Source: Thermoleophilaceae bacterium
GTDB taxonomy: Bacteria > Actinomycetota > Thermoleophilia > Solirubrobacterales > Thermoleophilaceae
DNA: 64,000 bases
Direction of reading: 5' to 3'
Assembly (NCBI GenBank): GCA_030448005.1
Contig: JAUJNT010000003.1
Location: forward strand, 1-64,000
Shown piece after piece: positions 52,921-61,401 of the stretch (position 1 is its first letter; each line of letters opens with the position of its first letter). The notes beneath the pieces were generated by a model, which had not been told where the DNA came from, made no database searches, and worked only from the letters and a program-made list of their open reading frames with translations. A program made the translations under genes and the position numbers.

Positions 52921-53308
52921 TTACTTGGTTTTGACAGTGAGCAACGTACTGGTTGGGGCGGCGGGGCCGAGCACGGCGAGCCCGTAGGGCGAGTGGTGGG
53001 AGGGTCCGCCGGCGCGGCCGGCCGGTCCGCCGGCGGCGGCCGCGGTGAGCGCGTTGAGCTCGAACTCGACCGGGGGGATGTCGCCGAGTTCGCCGTGCAG
53101 GCGCGTGTTGTTGTACCAGCCGACCCACGCGACGGTCGCGAGCTCGACCTCGGTGGCGGTCCGCCACACGCGGTCTGCGATCAGCTCCGTCTTTAGGTGT
53201 CCACGAGGCTTTCGGCCATCGCGTTGTCATAGGCGTCGCCGGTCGTTCCGACCGAGGCCAGCACGCCCCCGCGGCCATCACGGCGTGCAGGTCGGCGCTG
53301 GTGTACTG
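52921..53308 (-). pseudogene. 3' part of the IS3 transposase orfB
   Basis: Reading on the minus strand from the IS30 junction: QYTSADLHAVMAAG, then with shifts DAYDNAMAESLVDT (catalytic Glu region), TELIADRVWRTATEVELATV and WVGWYNNTRLHGELGDIPP. This is the end of an IS3 integrase domain. At least two one-base shifts and loss of contact with its 5' part make it non-functional. Confidence 0.85.
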
Positions 53309-54957
53309 GGCGGATTCAAGCGGTCCTCGCAACGCTCGATCGAGAGGAGTTGCGATGGGCGCGAGGAGAAGGCGGCGGTCGGATCGGGCTGGTCGGCCGG
53401 CGATGCGGTCACCGGGACGTCCGGCGGCGGGGCGGAAGGAGCACCGCCAGCGGTTCTGGGCAGCGATCGCTCGCGGGCTGTCCAGCGAGGACGCGGCGGC
53501 CGAAGCGGGCGTGTCGGCCGCGGTTGGCGTCCGGTGGTTCCGGGAGGGTGGCGGGATGCCGTCCGTCACGCTCGGCGCGCCGTCGGGGCGGTACCTGTCG
53601 TTCGCCGAGCGGGAGGAGATCGCTCTTCTTCGGGCGCGTGGTTGCGGCGTGCGGGAGATCGCGCGGGCGCTCGGGCGCTCGCCGTCCACGATCTCGAGGG
53701 AGCTGCGTCGCAATGCCGCGACGCGTGCCGGTGGGCTCGAGTATCGGGCCAGCGCCGCGCAGTGGCATGCCGACCGTCGAAGCCGGCGTCCGAAGCCCGC
53801 CAAGCTCGCGGAGAATCCTGAGTTGCGCCGGTATGTGCAGGACCGCCTAGCCGGTGCGGTGGAGCGGCCCGACGGGGTCGTCGTCGACGGTCCAGCGGTC
53901 GCGTGGATCGGCCGGCGCCATGGCCGGCGCAAGGACCGGCGGTGGACGAGGTCCTGGAGCCCGGAGCAGATCTCCAGCCGGCTCCGCCTCGACTTCCCCG
54001 ATGATGAGTCGATGCGCGTCTCCCACGAGGCGATCTACCAGTCGCTCTATATCCAGGGGCGCGGCGCGCTCAGGCGCGAGCTCACCGCCTGCTTGCGCAC
54101 CGGACGCGCGCTGCGCGTCCCGAGGGCCCGCACGCGCGGCGCGGCAAGAGCTTCGTGACCGACGAGATCCTGATCAGCGAGCGGCCCGCCGAAGCTGCCG
54201 ACCGTGCCGTTCCGGGCCACTGGGAAGGCGACCTGATCCTCGGCCTGGGCAGCTCCGCGATCGGCACGCTCGTGGAGCGCAGCAGCCGGTTCACGATGCT
54301 GCTTCACCTTCCGCCGATGTGCGGCGGCGAGGACCCCAGGATCAAGAACGGACCCGCGCTCACCGGTCACGGAGCCGAGGCCGTCCGCGACACGATCGCC
54401 GCCGCGATCACCACGCTCCCCGAGCAGCTGCGCCGGTCGCTGACCTGGGACCAGGGCGCCGAGATGGCCCAGCACGCGCAGCTTCGGATCGACACCGGCC
54501 TGCAGATCTACTTCTGCAATCCACAGAGCCCGTGGCAGCGCGGCACCAACGAGAACACCAACGGGCTGCTGCGCCAGTACTTCCCGAAGGGCACCGACCT
54601 CGCCAGGCACAGCGCCGACGACATCGCCGCCGTCGCCGCCGCCCTGAACACGCGCCCCCGGAAGACCCTCGGCTGGAGAACGCCCGCCGAAGCGCTCGAC
54701 GAGCACCTGGCGAAGACAGCCTGAGCCGGCCCAGCCCGCCGACCGCGAACGAGGCGAGATCCGGAGCGCCGCGCAACGGGGCCCAGCTAGGCGCGCACGC
54801 GCCTATCGCCGCTCCGGCCCGCCCTCCGGGCGAGCCTCGACGGCGACAGGCGCATCACCCCAGCACGCGTCTCTGCGCCGAGGCCCGCGGAGCCGTCACC
54901 TGCAGTCCGTAGATTCATCTCACGGAAACGCTGTTGCGAGGACCGGTTGAGTCCGGG
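53309..54957 (+). mobile_element. IS30-family element inserted in the IS3 transposase
   Basis: About 1.65 kb. The ends are inverted repeats: CGGATTCAAGCGGTCCTCGC at the left and the complement of CGGACTCAACCGGTCCTCGC at the right (18 of 20 identical). CTG occurs on both sides (53306-53308 and 54958-54960) as a 3-bp target duplication. Removing the element and one CTG restores the IS3 reading HHSDRGSQYTSADL, proving the insertion point. Confidence 0.88.
53355..54724 (+). pseudogene. IS30 transposase with one frameshift
   Basis: The first frame (ATG 53355 to TGA 54158) holds the helix-turn-helix (YLSFAEREEIALLRARGCGV, ALGRSPSTISRELRRN) and [31 protein letters not shown]. The second frame (from about 54140 to 54724) has the DDE residues in [22 protein letters not shown] and [17 protein letters not shown]. 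One base is missing near 54140 (RTRG then RGKSFVTDE). It could be a programmed shift, but a single-frame form is normal for IS30, so it is probably inactivated. Confidence 0.85.
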
Positions 54958-55553
54958 CTGGCTCCCGCGGTCTGAGTGGTGGACGAGCTCGACGTGCCCC
55001 AGCTGCGTGCGCGTGCCGAGCGCCATCCGGAGCGCGTCGACGACGAGCTCGGCGCGCATGTCGGAGGCGAGCTGCCAGCCGACGATCATGCGGCTGAAGA
55101 CGTCGAGGCAGAACGCGAAGAAGACGAGCCCCTCCCAGCAGCGCACGTAGGTGAAGTCGGCGACGACCAGCTCACCGGGCTCAGACGCGCCGAAGTTACG
55201 CCCAACGAGGTCTGGGCGCCGCTTTGCGTCCGGGTCGGCGGACGTCGTGCGCCACGGGCGCCCGCGCCGCTTGGCGCCCTGGATGGCGTTGTCGCGCATG
55301 ATCCGCTGCAGCTGGCAGCGCGGCGCGCGCTCGCCGCGGCGGCGCAGCTCCTTCCACATCCGCCGGTAGCCGTAGGCCTCGTAGTTCTCCTTGTGGACCT
55401 CCCGAATCAGGCCGAGCAGGCGCTCGTCCTCGACCTCGCGGGCCGAGCGCCCGCCGCTCTGACGCTCGTAGAAGGCAGACGCCGATACGCCCAGCGTGCG
55501 GCAGATGAGCTCGACCCGAAATCCGCGCGCCGCTGCTCAATGAACGCGCTCAC
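54958..55553 (-). pseudogene. 5' part of the IS3 transposase orfB
   Basis: From GTG 55553, which overlaps the orfA stop (GTGA): SAFIEQRRADFG, then after a one-base loss near 55520 VELICRTLGVSASAFYERQ, YGYRRMWKELRRRGER, ELVVADFTYVRCWEGLVFF (first Asp) and HVELVHHSDRGSQ (second Asp), where the IS30 element cuts in. The rest lies at 52921-53308. Confidence 0.85.
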
Positions 55554-55852
55554 CTCGATCGGGTCGGGTCGAGCTCCTTGGCGAAAAATACCGAAGCGGC
55601 CTTCAATATCTCATTCGCCTTGCGCAAGTCGCGCACCTCACGCTCGAGGCTCTTCAGACGCTCGCGCTCGCCGCTGGTCAGCCGGTCTGAGCGCCCGCCA
55701 CCGTCGGCCTCGGCCTGGCGCACCCACGTGCGCAGCGACTGCGCCCCGATACCGAGATCCTTCGCCACCTGCGCGACCGGCCGGCCCGACTCGAACACGA
55801 GCCGCACCGCCCTCTCACGCAACTCGTCGGGATACCTCTTCTGCGATGACAT
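55550..55852 (-). CDS. IS3-family transposase orfA
   Basis: 100 residues. It has the HTH_Tnp_1 helix-turn-helix (RYPDELRERAVRLVFESGRP, VAKDLGIGAQSLRTWVRQAE) followed by the leucine-zipper coiled coil (ERERLKSLEREVRDLRKANEILK). It would bind the IS ends and, by ribosomal frameshifting, form the OrfAB transposase; orfB is broken, so the element cannot move by itself. Confidence 0.9.
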   Translation of the reverse strand: MSSQKRYPDELRERAVRLVFESGRPVAQVAKDLGIGAQSLRTWVRQAEADGGGRSDRLTSGERERLKSLEREVRDLRKANEILKAASVFFAKELDPTRSR

Positions 55853-55922
55853 CGATGGAGCCTCGACTCTCTCCAGGACAGAACCCTGGAATCGAGGTCT
55901 CCGTCAAACCCGGCCTGGCTCA

Positions 55923-56907
55923 ATCTGCAAGAGGCTCTGCGCGCGAGACGTCGAGCGCTTCTTCTCACGCTGGCAGGCGCGGCTGCCCTCGCCGTTCACG
56001 GTCGCCGATCGGCGCCGCGGCTACCGCTACGCGCTCGCCTTCCGCCAGCTCGAGCTCTCAGACACGCGCGTCTTCGAGCGCCCGGCGCAGGGACGCGCCT
56101 GGTTTGAGCAGACGATTCGCGACCAGCTCGTGCTCGGGCGCCCCGACAACGTCGCGATCGTCTTCGGCCGCCGCATCGACCGCACGACGCCCGGGCGCTT
56201 TCTGACGCGCGTGATCAACCGCGGCGTCGAGCCGGCGATCCAGGTCCACTACAAGCGCTCGAAGGTAAAGCAGTACTTCAAGGGGCAGGGCGCTCAGGAC
56301 CGAGACGACGATCAACGACACGCGTGACTTCGGGGTCGGCCGACTGCTGACCGAGGCCAACTGGGAGGCGCTACTTCGGATCGGCCACGAGACCAACGAG
56401 CGCTTGCTCTCCGCCCAGCTCGAGGCGTGCCAGTGCGCGCCCGACGCACAGACGCTCGAGCACGTCGTGCTGCCGTCGCGAGAGGACGGCCTACCCTGCC
56501 CCCGGACTGCGCCTTGGCGACCCGCGCGTGATGGCGCTGCTCGCCTCGCTGTGCGCGTTTCGCCACCTGTTCGAGGGGCTCACCGATCGCTCGCTGCGCG
56601 CCTTCGTCGCCGGCCTTTTGCCCGGCTACAGCGCAAAGCCAGGCGACCTATGACCTGTGGCCGCCTGCGGCGCGAGGGCCTGATCCGCCGCATCCCGCGC
56701 TCGCAGCGCTACGAGCTGACGAGCGCGGGCCGGCGGCTCGTCGTCTTCTTCACGAAGACCTACTCCCGGATCGTCTGCCCATCGCTCGCCGAGCTCGATC
56801 CGGCCCTGCCCGATCAGATCGCGCGCCAGACTGCGCTCGGTCGACCGTGGCGCCAGTTCGAGCGGGCGCTCGACGCGCGCATTGAGGCGGCCGCTATCGC
56901 GGCCTGA
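55923..56907 (+). pseudogene. Decayed winged-helix protein, C-terminal half
   Basis: Successive frames read VERFFSRWQARLPSPF, RPDNVAIVFGRRI, RVINRGVEPAIQVHYKRSKVKQYFK, RTETTINDTRDFGVGRL, LRREGLIRRIPRSQRYELTSAGRR and FFTKTYSRIVCPSLAELDP. This matches a widespread uncharacterised family ending in a winged helix, known to me only by its typical segments (IKHY..SVK.YDK, LR.ETTIN, LR.HGLI.K). At least three single-base shifts break it. The N-terminal half is absent and the fragment begins exactly at the IS3 end. Confidence 0.65.
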
Positions 56908-56964
56908 AACGATGACTCATCCGCGTGAAGGTTTGGGCGACCAAGCGCAGCTAGACTCTCGCCG
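56773..56964 (+). repeat. 192-bp inverted repeat, left copy
   Basis: By eye, base-for-base identical to the reverse complement of 59151-59342. It contains the last 45 codons of the decayed winged-helix gene and about 60 bp beyond. The two copies enclose 2186 bp with an IS481 fragment and a polytopic membrane protein gene. Confidence 0.9.
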
Positions 56965-57303
56965 CGCGTGAGCTGAGCGCCGTCGGCTGGAAGCTGCGTG
57001 AGATCACGACCGACAACGGCTCTGAGATTCCGCGCGCGCGAGTTCGGCGAGGCGGTCGGGGAGGCGGGGCGCGCCACGCGCTTCATCAAGGCCGGCACTC
57101 CGAACTCAAACGGCTGCGTCGAGCGCCTGCAGCTGACGATCCTCAAGGAGTGCTGGCGCCCCGAGGTTGCGCGCTCGCTCGTCCCCAAGATCACCGGCCT
57201 GCGGCGCGACCTCGACGAGTACCTGCGCTACTTCAACACCGATCGCGCCCACACGGGGCGCCGCACCAAGGGCCGCGTCCCGGCTACGGCGCGCGCAAGA
57301 TGA
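56965..57303 (+). pseudogene. IS481/IS3-type integrase fragment
   Basis: Frames read ELSAVGWKLREITTDNGSE (second catalytic Asp), then after a one-base shift FRAREFGEAVGEAG, FIKAGTPNSNGCVERLQLTI (catalytic Glu), LKECWRPEVARSL and FNTDRAHTGRRTKGR. This is the C-terminal third of an rve-type integrase of the IS481 style. The N-terminal part is missing, and the fragment abuts the 192-bp repeat. Confidence 0.8.
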
Positions 57304-57397
57304 GGAGCGTGAGACGAGCGCGACGTGTCGCTACGTCTCTGGATTAGGACGAGCTAGGCCTATGGGGGCGCAGTGAGGATGTCGAAGCCCGCCCGCG

Positions 57398-59029
57398 CTA
57401 CCGTTCCGATTGCCGTTCGTACAGCACCAGCTTTCCGTTGGCCGTCTGGGTCACGGGCCGGAAGCCCTGCTTGAGCTGGTTCATGAGGTGGCGTGCGTCC
57501 GATGGCAGCCGTCGCGCCGGCTCATTCCGCCACAGCATGACATAGCGCAACTCAGGCACCGCCGACAGATCCACGTCTGGGGGTGCCTCCTCGAGCTTCC
57601 CCAGGGCGACGAAGGCGTTGCGCTCGCGATGGAAGCGGACCGGAAAGTAGCTCGTCGCGGCCTCGTAGTGCCCCGCGTCGACACCGCCGGTCATGAGGGC
57701 GACGAGTGACGGCGCGTGCAGCAGGGGGTCTTGCACCAAGCGCCTCAACCCGCTCGCTGCGGGCTCTTCGCTGCGCAGGCGGAAGCCGACGAGCAACGAC
57801 TGCGGCTCGATGAAAGAACTCAGTTCGCGGTAAGCCTGTACCTTCCGGTCGAACTCGAGCTGGACAGGAAACCGCAGGACCACGACGCCGAGGGCCACGA
57901 CGCAACCGGCTACGGTCGCCGTTGCCCGCAGCCAACTCGGCGGGCGAATCGCTGCAACGGCGAGTAGCAACAGCAGCGGCGGGAACATCGCCAGACGCGC
58001 GTGCATCAACCCGCCCTGCCCGAAGCTCTCGGGCACCACGACATAGAGAGCGAGCGTCACGACCAGGGTCACCAGCGCCGGCGATCGCCAGTCTGATCGA
58101 AAGTGTCGGAGATGGTGTATCAACGCGCCGAGCAGCAGAACCAGGCTGCATACCAACACCAGCAGCGGCAGGAACTCCAGTAGGGAGTACGTGACAAGCG
58201 GCAGTTGGAGCGTCAGGAGGCCAACGAGGTGGATGGGCAACAGGTCGTAACCGAGGTAGATCCCTTCGCCAGCGGGACGTGCGAGAAAAGCCAAGGTGAG
58301 GACGCCCACCGGAACCAGTGCCAGCACGGGAGGAGCAATGCGGTGAAAAAGCTGTCGCCGCGAGGCTGGCGGGTCTAGGTAAAGGTCGATTGCCGTGGTT
58401 GTGCACAGGAATAGCGCAAGCATCACCAGGGGCACGAGATGTGTGAAGTAGCAGAGCAACAGGATTGCGCTGAGACCGAGCCCTGAGCGCTTGGTCCAGC
58501 TTCTCCTGTGCCGTTGCACGTGCGCCACGCCTAGAAGAAAGGCCACGACCCCGTAGGAGAAGTTGTAGAAGCCCCACATCAGGAAGGTGCTCGTCGAGAG
58601 CACGAGTCCGACTGGAACGACCCAGGACGCGTCCGGTCGCACGGACAATACGGCTCGGCGAAGGGCGTACGCAAAACCCACGAGATAGAGACCAACGACC
58701 AGCTTCTCGGCAGTCGTGGGGCTCACTACCTCAAGGAGCCCAGCCAGCAAGTACTGCGTCAGCAAGTTGGGAAGCGGGAAGTTATCTCGGTAGTAATAGG
58801 TGTCGTAGATCTGTTGTTCGGCTCCACCCAGAACGTAGGCACCGAGAACGTGTGCAGGGCCGTCCACGCTTCCGACGTTCTTCAGTATGAGCAACGGCAA
58901 CAGCTGCACCGCTACGACCCCCGCTATTGCGAGATCGGGGCCTGTCAGGGACTTGAGACGGACGCGGACGCTTGCCATCCTCGGTTTCACCGATGCAGAG
59001 CGCAGCTTCGGCCGATAGCCCACGCCCAT
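57398..59029 (-). CDS. Polytopic membrane protein, possible GT-C-type glycosyltransferase
   Basis: 543 residues from ATG 59029, which has GAAGGGGG as ribosome site. About ten to twelve membrane helices are visible (for example IAGVVAVQLLPLLIL, FLPLLVLVCSLVLLLGALI, LVTLVVTLALYVVVP). The first outer loop has DGPAHVLGAYVL, a D-x-x-x-H arrangement seen in GT-C-like proteins, and a C-terminal soluble domain of about 130 residues follows. No exact family is recognised. Base composition is visibly less GC-rich than its neighbours, and the gene is enclosed by the 192-bp inverted repeat, suggesting transfer. Confidence 0.75.
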   Translation of the reverse strand: MGVGYRPKLRSASVKPRMASVRVRLKSLTGPDLAIAGVVAVQLLPLLILKNVGSVDGPAHVLGAYVLGGAEQQIYDTYYYRDNFPLPNLLTQYLLAGLLEVVSPTTAEKLVVGLYLVGFAYALRRAVLSVRPDASWVVPVGLVLSTSTFLMWGFYNFSYGVVAFLLGVAHVQRHRRSWTKRSGLGLSAILLLCYFTHLVPLVMLALFLCTTTAIDLYLDPPASRRQLFHRIAPPVLALVPVGVLTLAFLARPAGEGIYLGYDLLPIHLVGLLTLQLPLVTYSLLEFLPLLVLVCSLVLLLGALIHHLRHFRSDWRSPALVTLVVTLALYVVVPESFGQGGLMHARLAMFPPLLLLLAVAAIRPPSWLRATATVAGCVVALGVVVLRFPVQLEFDRKVQAYRELSSFIEPQSLLVGFRLRSEEPAASGLRRLVQDPLLHAPSLVALMTGGVDAGHYEAATSYFPVRFHRERNAFVALGKLEEAPPDVDLSAVPELRYVMLWRNEPARRLPSDARHLMNQLKQGFRPVTQTANGKLVLYERQSER

Positions 59030-59150
59030 ACCCCCCTTCTCTGCCAGACCCGGAACCGTAAGCCCTGCAAGCTCAACTCCCTCCCTTGGCGCTCCACGTC
59101 TGCCGGTCACCCACCGGGTGGCGCCTTGCGGTGTGCGGGTCACTGCTGCC

Positions 59151-59342
59151 CGGCGAGAGTCTAGCTGCGCTTGGTCGCCCAAACCTTCACGCGGATGAGT
59201 CATCGTTTCAGGCCGCGATAGCGGCCGCCTCAATGCGCGCGTCGAGCGCCCGCTCGAACTGGCGCCACGGTCGACCGAGCGCAGTCTGGCGCGCGATCTG
59301 ATCGGGCAGGGCCGGATCGAGCTCGGCGAGCGATGGGCAGAC
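59151..59342 (-). repeat. 192-bp inverted repeat, right copy
   Basis: Reverse complement of 56773-56964 without visible mismatch. It lies 121 bp upstream of the membrane protein start and is directly followed by a 14-bp sequence matching an IS3 end. Confidence 0.9.
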
Positions 59343-59356
59343 CCCGGCCTGGCTCA
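59343..59356. mobile_element. 14-bp IS3-end remnant
   Basis: CCCGGCCTGGCTCA is identical to the outer 14 bp of the right inverted repeat of the IS3 element (55909-55922). It directly adjoins the right 192-bp repeat, marking a recombination junction. Confidence 0.5.
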
Positions 59357-59722
59357 CACCGGCCTCCATCCCGAGTTGATGTGCGCGTCACGGCCCTCCT
59401 TGTTCCTGTGCTCCACGAGGACCGAGAGTGTGGTGCGCCCGTCCACCTCGGTGAGCGCTCAGCACCCGGAGTTGGGCCGTTCCGTTGGCTGCTCTTCGCG
59501 AAGCGAGGAGTCTCCTCGCACTCTGGCGTGCGCTTCGCGTGGGGGCACCTCAACCGGTATCGTTGAAAAATGAGTTTGCGCGTCGAGTCTGTCTTGATGA
59601 TGGCCCGCTTGCCACGGGCTGTCGGCGCGCTCTAGTTCGCACCGTCGACACCGGCCCCAGACTGCTTGGGGTCGGCGCTCTCATCGGATGCTGGTCCCAA
59701 CGGGCCAGAAGGGAAGGCACCG
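59357..59722. other. Non-coding region upstream of metG-like gene
   Basis: 366 nt without a credible gene. A small hairpin (CCCCA...TGGGG near 59655-59671) and another just before the ribosome site (TGGTCCC/GGGCCA, about 59692-59708) are visible. GGGAAGG serves as Shine-Dalgarno for the downstream gene. I do not see a complete T-box. Confidence 0.4.
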
Positions 59723-61219
59723 ATGAGCAAACGACGCTTCTACATCACAACGGCGATCCCGTACGTCAACGGCGACCCGCATCTCGGCTTTGCGCTCGAG
59801 TGTGTGCAGGCCGACGTACTGGCGCGCCACCGGCGGCTGCTCGGGGAGCGGGTCCGCTTCCTGAGCGGAACGGACGACCATTCGCTCAAGAACGTCGAGG
59901 CTGCCGCCGTTGCCGGCGTGCCGGTCGCGCAGTTCGTGGATGTAAAGGCGGAGCGGTTTGCCGCGCTTCGCGAACCGCTTGAGCTCTCCTATGACGACTT
60001 CATCGCCACGAGCCGCGATCCGCGTCACCGCCCAGGGGTGAGGCGCCTCTGGCACGCGTGCGCCGCGAGCGGAGACCTCTATGAGCGCTACTACGAGGGT
60101 CTCTACTGCACCGGCTGCGAGGCCTTCCGCTCCCCGAACGAGCTCGTCGACGGGCTCTGTCCCGAGCACCGCCGGCCACCGGAGCAGGTCGCTGAGCGCA
60201 ACTGGTTCTTTCGCCTCTCGCGCTACCGCGATCAGCTGCTTGACCTGATCGAGAGCGGAGGGCTTCGGATCGAGCCAGAGCAGCGGCGAAACGAGGTGCT
60301 CGGTTTCATCGGTGGCGGGCTCGAGGACTTCAGCGTCTCCCGCTCCCAAGAGCGCGCACACGGCTGGGGCATCCCGGTGCCGGGGGACCCGAGCCAGGTG
60401 GTCTACGTCTGGTTTGACGCGCTTGGGAACTACATCAGTGCGCTGGGCTACGGAACCGAGGGCGAGCTCTACGGCCAGTGGTGGGAGCGCTCAGACGAGC
60501 GCCTGCACGTGATCGGCAAGGGGATCATCCGCTTTCACGCGGTCTACTGGCCGGCCATCCTGCTCTCCGCCGGGGAGGCGCTACCGACGGCGATCTTCGT
60601 CCACGACTACCTCACCGTCGACGGGCAGAAGCTTTCGAAGTCGCTCGGCGGCACCCACGACCCCGCCGACATCGCGGGCTACTACGGAAGCGCCGCGCTG
60701 CGGTGGTGGTTTCTTCGCGACGTGCCGCGTGCTGGTGATACCGACTTTCGCGAGGAGCGGCTCGCCGCGCGCGCGAACGAGCTCGCCGACGGCCTCGGAA
60801 ACCTCGTCAACCGCACCATCGCGCTGGTCGCGCGCCATCGCCCACGGGGCATTGCCGCAGTCGAGCCCCGGACGGAGGAGTCGCTCGCGCTACAAGCGGC
60901 CCTCCAACGGACACCGGGCGAGATCGAGGACGCCCTTTCTCGCTTCGACATCAGGTCTGCCGCGGCGGCGCTCTGGTCTCTCGTCGAGGAGGCCAATCGT
61001 TATGTCGCCGCGACGCGGCCCTGGGAGCTCGCAAGGGCCGAATCCGACATAGACGCCGGCACCGACCTCGACGAAGCGTTGGGTGTCCTCATGAGCGCCT
61101 GCCGCACGCTCGCGCGCGAGTGCCGGCCCTTCCTGCCCGCGGCGAGCGAGCGAATCGGGTGCGCTCTCGCCGAGGGCAATCCGGAGCTTGGCCGCCGGCT
61201 GTTCCCAAAAGCCCCGTGA
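59723..61219 (+). CDS. Methionyl-tRNA synthetase, probably an additional or acquired copy
   Basis: 498 residues. The class I catalytic core has the HIGH-type PYVNGDPHLGFALE (about residues 12-25), a single-knuckle insert CTGCEAFRSPNEL...CPEH (about 131-152), the WFDALGNYISALGY active-site region (about 232) and the KMSKS-type QKLSKSLGG (about 303). A helical anticodon-binding domain follows (ANELADGLGNLVNRTIALVA). It charges tRNA-Met. It sits in a mobile-element zone, away from the usual metG neighbours, so it may be a second, drug-tolerant or horizontally acquired form. It lacks a C-terminal tRNA-binding extension. Confidence 0.9.
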   Translation: MSKRRFYITTAIPYVNGDPHLGFALECVQADVLARHRRLLGERVRFLSGTDDHSLKNVEAAAVAGVPVAQFVDVKAERFAALREPLELSYDDFIATSRDPRHRPGVRRLWHACAASGDLYERYYEGLYCTGCEAFRSPNELVDGLCPEHRRPPEQVAERNWFFRLSRYRDQLLDLIESGGLRIEPEQRRNEVLGFIGGGLEDFSVSRSQERAHGWGIPVPGDPSQVVYVWFDALGNYISALGYGTEGELYGQWWERSDERLHVIGKGIIRFHAVYWPAILLSAGEALPTAIFVHDYLTVDGQKLSKSLGGTHDPADIAGYYGSAALRWWFLRDVPRAGDTDFREERLAARANELADGLGNLVNRTIALVARHRPRGIAAVEPRTEESLALQAALQRTPGEIEDALSRFDIRSAAAALWSLVEEANRYVAATRPWELARAESDIDAGTDLDEALGVLMSACRTLARECRPFLPAASERIGCALAEGNPELGRRLFPKAP

Positions 61220-61401
61220 CCGCGCTTCCCCTCAATACCGCTGGTCTCTCCGTCGAGCAGTCGATCGCACGTATTGGATGCGTGGCTCGCGGCGATTCCT
61301 TGAAGCTGGATCGGCCGCGGGGCGCTAGGGCAGGCGGCCTGTCGGTCAGCAGGTGAGCACTGTTGACGGAGGGAAGATGCCCTGAGCCGTCGACCTTGGA
61401 A

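Follow-up and report, generated by a model that had tools for sequence, protein, structure and literature searches.

A perfect 192-bp inverted repeat in a Thermoleophilaceae genome as a probable local duplication of the end of a decayed IS-like element

Do the two perfectly matching inverted arms that surround a membrane-protein gene in a Thermoleophilaceae bacterium belong to a mobile or invertible unit, as the preliminary description of the locus had suggested, or did they arise in another way? The question was addressed in the first 64,000 nucleotides of contig JAUJNT010000003.1 (assembly GCA_030448005.1), and this whole stretch is referred to here as the window.

Geometry and gene content of the repeat

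The features of the locus, in window coordinates, are:

53301-54724, + strand: IS30 remnant, part of a cluster of broken insertion sequences.
54787-55852, - strand: IS3-type transposase remnants, bordering the element remnant where its 5' part is truncated.
55905-56954, + strand: remnant of an untyped IS-like element, 5'-truncated and frameshifted (start approximate; from the alignment of relatives).
56773-56964, + strand: left arm, made up of the decayed element gene's 45 terminal codons with the stop codon (56907), the 47 nt that lead to the 3' tip, and a 10-bp flank.
56951-56954, + strand: CTAG, the conserved 3' tip of the element, from aligned 3' ends of independent copies (right-arm counterpart 59161-59164).
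56955-56964, + strand: 10-bp flank ACTCTCGCCG past the element tip, common to both arms (counterpart 59151-59160).
56998-57303, + strand: C-terminal fragment of an IS481-type transposase, between the arms (Pfam rve_3, NCBIfam transpos_IS481, profile positions 200-282 of 284).
57398-58978, - strand: intact polytopic membrane-protein ORF of 526 aa, between the arms, without a family match.
59151-59342, - strand: right arm, repeating the left one exactly in inverted orientation.

The arms are reverse complements at 192 of 192 positions and are separated by a spacer of 2186 bp, as first described. The repeat finder reported them as 195 nt at 99%, because position 193 is mismatched while 194-195 match. 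The runner-up exact inverted repeat in the window measures 20 bp and the longest ones in five mononucleotide shuffles of it 16-22 bp, so that a chance origin of the 192-bp repeat is excluded; no second comparable inverted repeat was found within the 64 kb. With 0 differences in 192 bp, the 95% upper bound on the divergence of the arms is ~1.6%. The event was therefore recent, unless the arms owe their equality to conversion; this upholds the recent event or gene conversion proposed initially. A search for the 192-bp sequence elsewhere, also proposed there, extended its distribution no further: it occurs at just these two sites in the 3.23-Mb assembly, a plasmid search gave no match, and relatives gave weak or partial matches only (top match, 71% over 147 bp in G032). 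Phage records searched with the region and with the element protein gave no match either. Neither a target-site duplication adjoining the arms nor terminal repeats at their outer edges were found; the sole direct-repeat candidate around the arms is CCCGG, which on one side is displaced by 3 bp and could be a chance match. There is no tRNA in the window (tRNA-associated integration was considered), no Rfam RNA was found in the arms, and the only Rfam match was a group II intron in the flank of a relative.

Concerning the enclosed DNA, the integrase fragment and the lower-GC polytopic membrane gene reported earlier are both present. The former is the last third of an IS481-type transposase, and a stretch 78% identical to it lies at G000:C1:43712-43988. 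The frame of the membrane-protein gene stays open to 59233, inside the right arm. Its GC content by codon position (GC1/2/3) is 0.70/0.42/0.77, and GC is ~0.59-0.64 across most of the gene against ~0.70 around it. The protein had no match in Pfam, NCBIfam, PHROGs or PDB, and among the genomes searched only two others (G015, G145) encode relatives, at ~30% identity. The best explanation is that this gene and the IS481 fragment are bystanders, and nothing ties the function of the membrane gene to the repeats.

Positions 53301-57303 form a cluster of broken insertion sequences (IS30, IS3, the untyped element and IS481). On the right, a metG-like (methionyl-tRNA synthetase-like) gene at 59535-61220 recurs at 84% identity in the genome (G000:C8:489834-491324) and at 85% in a congener (G002:C5:141160-142647). 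In these copies homology stops sharply at ~1.7 kb and the flanks are unrelated each time, so that metG-like looks like a relocating gene; a distant (41%) MetRS is also encoded in the genome (G000:C1:534839). Beside the right arm, 59343-59480 (- strand) resembles by eye the end of an AHSA1/SRPBCC-type gene cut at the arm; a Pfam scan of the frame found nothing and this candidate was rejected.

The left arm as part of a decayed element

The left arm lies at the 3' side of a decayed gene spanning about 55905-56907. An intact relative of 534 aa aligns to the remnant from residue 209 onward and across three frames, which means that the remnant is 5' truncated and frameshifted. Specifically, the arm consists of the final 45 codons of this gene, its stop codon and 57 further nt, and its outer edge falls within the element ORF (open frame 56404-56907). 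The CTAG tip follows the stop codon by 47 nt, and the nearest relatives (L025, L065, L066, L069) have a similar spacing. Beyond CTAG the two arms stay identical for exactly 10 bases (ACTCTCGCCG) and then diverge. We call these bases flank, since CTAG is the last motif of the aligned relatives; an extended 3' end in some subfamily is conceivable. All of the right arm has its counterpart within the left remnant, and element sequence upstream of the last 45 codons is absent from this arm. No other or intact copy of the element family was found in this genome. Comparison with the relatives thus shows, as judged from aligned sequences, that in the left arm a decayed IS-like element has its own 3' terminus, and that the arm is not a terminal repeat. 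Since its outer edge lies inside an ORF and the right arm lacks the upstream element sequence, the arms do not delimit a unit with the membrane gene as cargo.

Origin of the repeat

The 3' flanks of independent element copies beyond CTAG are unrelated, whereas the two arms share 10 bp there, so that the simplest account of the right arm is copying of left-arm DNA, flank included, and not a second insertion. The repeat is thus probably a local inverted segmental duplication, whose right arm was copied recently by DNA repair or replication and not by transposition. Both the direction and the mechanism are what we infer from this anatomy. The left arm (the 3' end of the decayed element plus 10 bp of flank) would have served as the template, and the 192-bp inverted copy would have been made by templated insertion or template switching during break repair or replication. 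The copy may be filler DNA, left where end joining linked the region upstream of the membrane gene to the sequence that starts at 59343. Transposition of the element or of the enclosed segment would not have been involved, and homologous recombination between the arms could occasionally invert the membrane gene together with the IS481 fragment. The genome encodes Ku, which is permissive for end joining and no more, and the surroundings are full of broken pieces of IS3, IS30 and IS481. Clear microhomology was not seen at the arm joins. An unduplicated site or a syntenic locus was not found in congeners, where the metG-like anchor has different surroundings in each place.

One arm copies the other together with flank foreign to the element, as expected of a templated inverted duplication. 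Like known templated insertions and template-switch duplications, the locus has a short perfect inverted copy of nearby sequence that sits between unrelated sequences, and its breakpoints do not follow the ends of genes or elements. It differs from them in being bacterial and in that the 192-bp patch lies 2.2 kb away, and here the mechanism is deduced from the product. We judge each of the rival explanations, namely two insertions, an invertible segment, an assembly error and a mobile unit, to be less likely than templated duplication.

The first rival supposes that two copies of the element, in opposite orientation, flanked the membrane gene, that the right copy was mostly deleted, and that gene conversion maintains the identity of the 192 bp left over. 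Elsewhere the family is mobile and has multiple copies, the area is prone to deletion and inverted repeats are able to undergo conversion. However, independent insertions have unrelated 3' flanks while here 10 bp past the tip are common to both arms, and the conversion tracts would also have to take in this flank; we consider such a history unlikely.

A second possibility is that the arms recombine and turn the 2.2-kb core around, altering the expression or the joining of the membrane gene. Homologous recombination can act on two perfect inverted stretches of 192 bp separated by 2.2 kb, and the membrane gene frame is open into the right arm. As in phase-variable invertible segments, perfect inverted repeats surround a membrane-protein gene; unlike in those systems, no site-specific recombinase gene was found beside the repeat (the ORFs checked, within ~6 kb on the left, are the IS3 and IS30 remnants), and neither promoter-switch logic nor a second orientation was seen. 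The arms are element debris rather than recombination sites, the core is seen in a single orientation in one assembly, the arrangement is absent from the relatives searched, and no sign of a switch function was found. The anatomy thus gives no support to the invertible unit of the preliminary description, which is weakly possible in the sense that any 192-bp inverted repeat can recombine; as an explanation of the locus it is quite improbable.

A chimeric join during assembly is also very unlikely. The assembly is a draft of 9 contigs and the duplicated piece has no evident function, but such artefacts are generally expected to produce fold-back palindromes whose halves are adjacent, and not a patch of 192 bp that lies 2.2 kb off and is joined to other sequence on both sides, and no second case of the kind occurs within the window.

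Finally, the idea that the locus is a mobile unit, in which the arms would serve as 192-bp terminal inverted repeats of a simple or composite transposon that carries the membrane gene, is hardly credible and is contradicted by the anatomy: inverted arms do surround a lower-GC, foreign-looking gene of patchy distribution, as in composite transposons or those with long terminal inverted repeats, but these arms are the end of a dead element plus 10 bp of flank, the outer edge of the left one lies inside an ORF, target duplication is absent, the only transposase sequences are the IS481 C-terminal fragment and the dead element tail, and neither the genome nor plasmids hold a second copy.

The repeat is consequently best regarded as a rearrangement scar, an ordinary feature of little importance alone. 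It also serves as a caution that perfect inverted repeats can flank a gene without signalling mobility or a switch.

The untyped element family behind the arms

The element family is a more interesting lead than the inverted repeat and merits its own study. Its members are ~1.8 kb long and consist of a single ORF for a protein of ~530 aa, mostly annotated as hypothetical protein, between fixed tips (5' CTA-N-CG, 3' CTAG). The distribution is patchy, covering Actinomycetota and plasmids of Burkholderiaceae: of 296 genomes from the phylum, 10 (this genome counted) have a member, and plasmid members were found in Rhodococcus, Mycobacterium and relatives, Caballeronia, Paraburkholderia and Bradyrhizobium. 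Scans of viral contigs for the intact protein gave one frameshifted fragment.

Evidence for mobility comes from copies that can be delimited on both sides. Caballeronia plasmid pSBC2-3 bears two copies that are 94.8% identical over 1817 bp, and a copy on Paraburkholderia plasmid pBN2 has ~93% identity to the first of them over 94% of its length. All three (n = 2 for pSBC2-3, plus pBN2) start with CTAACGAGGC and end with GGAATCTAG, and the sequence outside is unrelated. Related tips occur in Rhodococcus, Mycolicibacterium and other genomes, with CTA-N-CG-R-GGC...GCC...CCGACGAG at the 5' end, where a short GC-rich motif separates CTA-N-CG from CCGACGAG, and CTTGACTC...CTAG at the 3' end, the latter 44-88 nt past the stop codon. 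Copies were located at L054:3216-5031, L095:3076-4890, L056:3333-5034 and L059:3217-5074, as well as in L067 and L084. Similar copies, identical tips and unrelated flanks together mark the family, on these comparisons, as an IS-like mobile element.

No terminal inverted repeats were seen in the element copies. Searches of Pfam, NCBIfam (including its IS transposase models), PADLOC, PHROGs and PDB with intact or nearly intact members gave nothing meaningful, and membership in a known IS family is not supported, as the protein has no meaningful match to any transposase family model in Pfam or NCBIfam. Keyword searches of the literature found no description of the element, which is weak evidence. 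The closest parallel in architecture is offered by IS200/IS605-type elements, which likewise lack terminal inverted repeats and have fixed tips, a short conserved 3' tetranucleotide and, as in some copies here, hairpin-like motifs near the ends. In contrast to them, the ~530-aa protein matches no HUH transposase or TnpB model, and an IS200/IS605 assignment is likewise not supported, family models having detected no HUH Y1 transposase. Hairpins near the 3' tip are notable in some copies (z about -2.5), but support at the 5' end is weak. Since hairpins do not stand out at the 5' tip or in the copy of the window, we claim no single-strand mechanism.

With a ~530-aa ORF devoid of a recognizable transposase domain, no terminal inverted repeats and fixed tips, the elements of Actinomycetota and Burkholderiaceae could, as a tentative proposal, constitute a prokaryotic transposable element family without named relatives, and might transpose by an undescribed chemistry. 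Proteins listed as hypothetical on several plasmids look like the one gene that a sharply delimited, untyped mobile element carries; should this be confirmed, the family would add a transposase type and lead to the re-annotation of many orphan genes. Among its members, the copy in L084 (G102:C301, 1316-1700) passes from its 5' tip and start codon directly into the C-terminal part of the coding region, and looks like an internally deleted copy, resembling a non-autonomous derivative.
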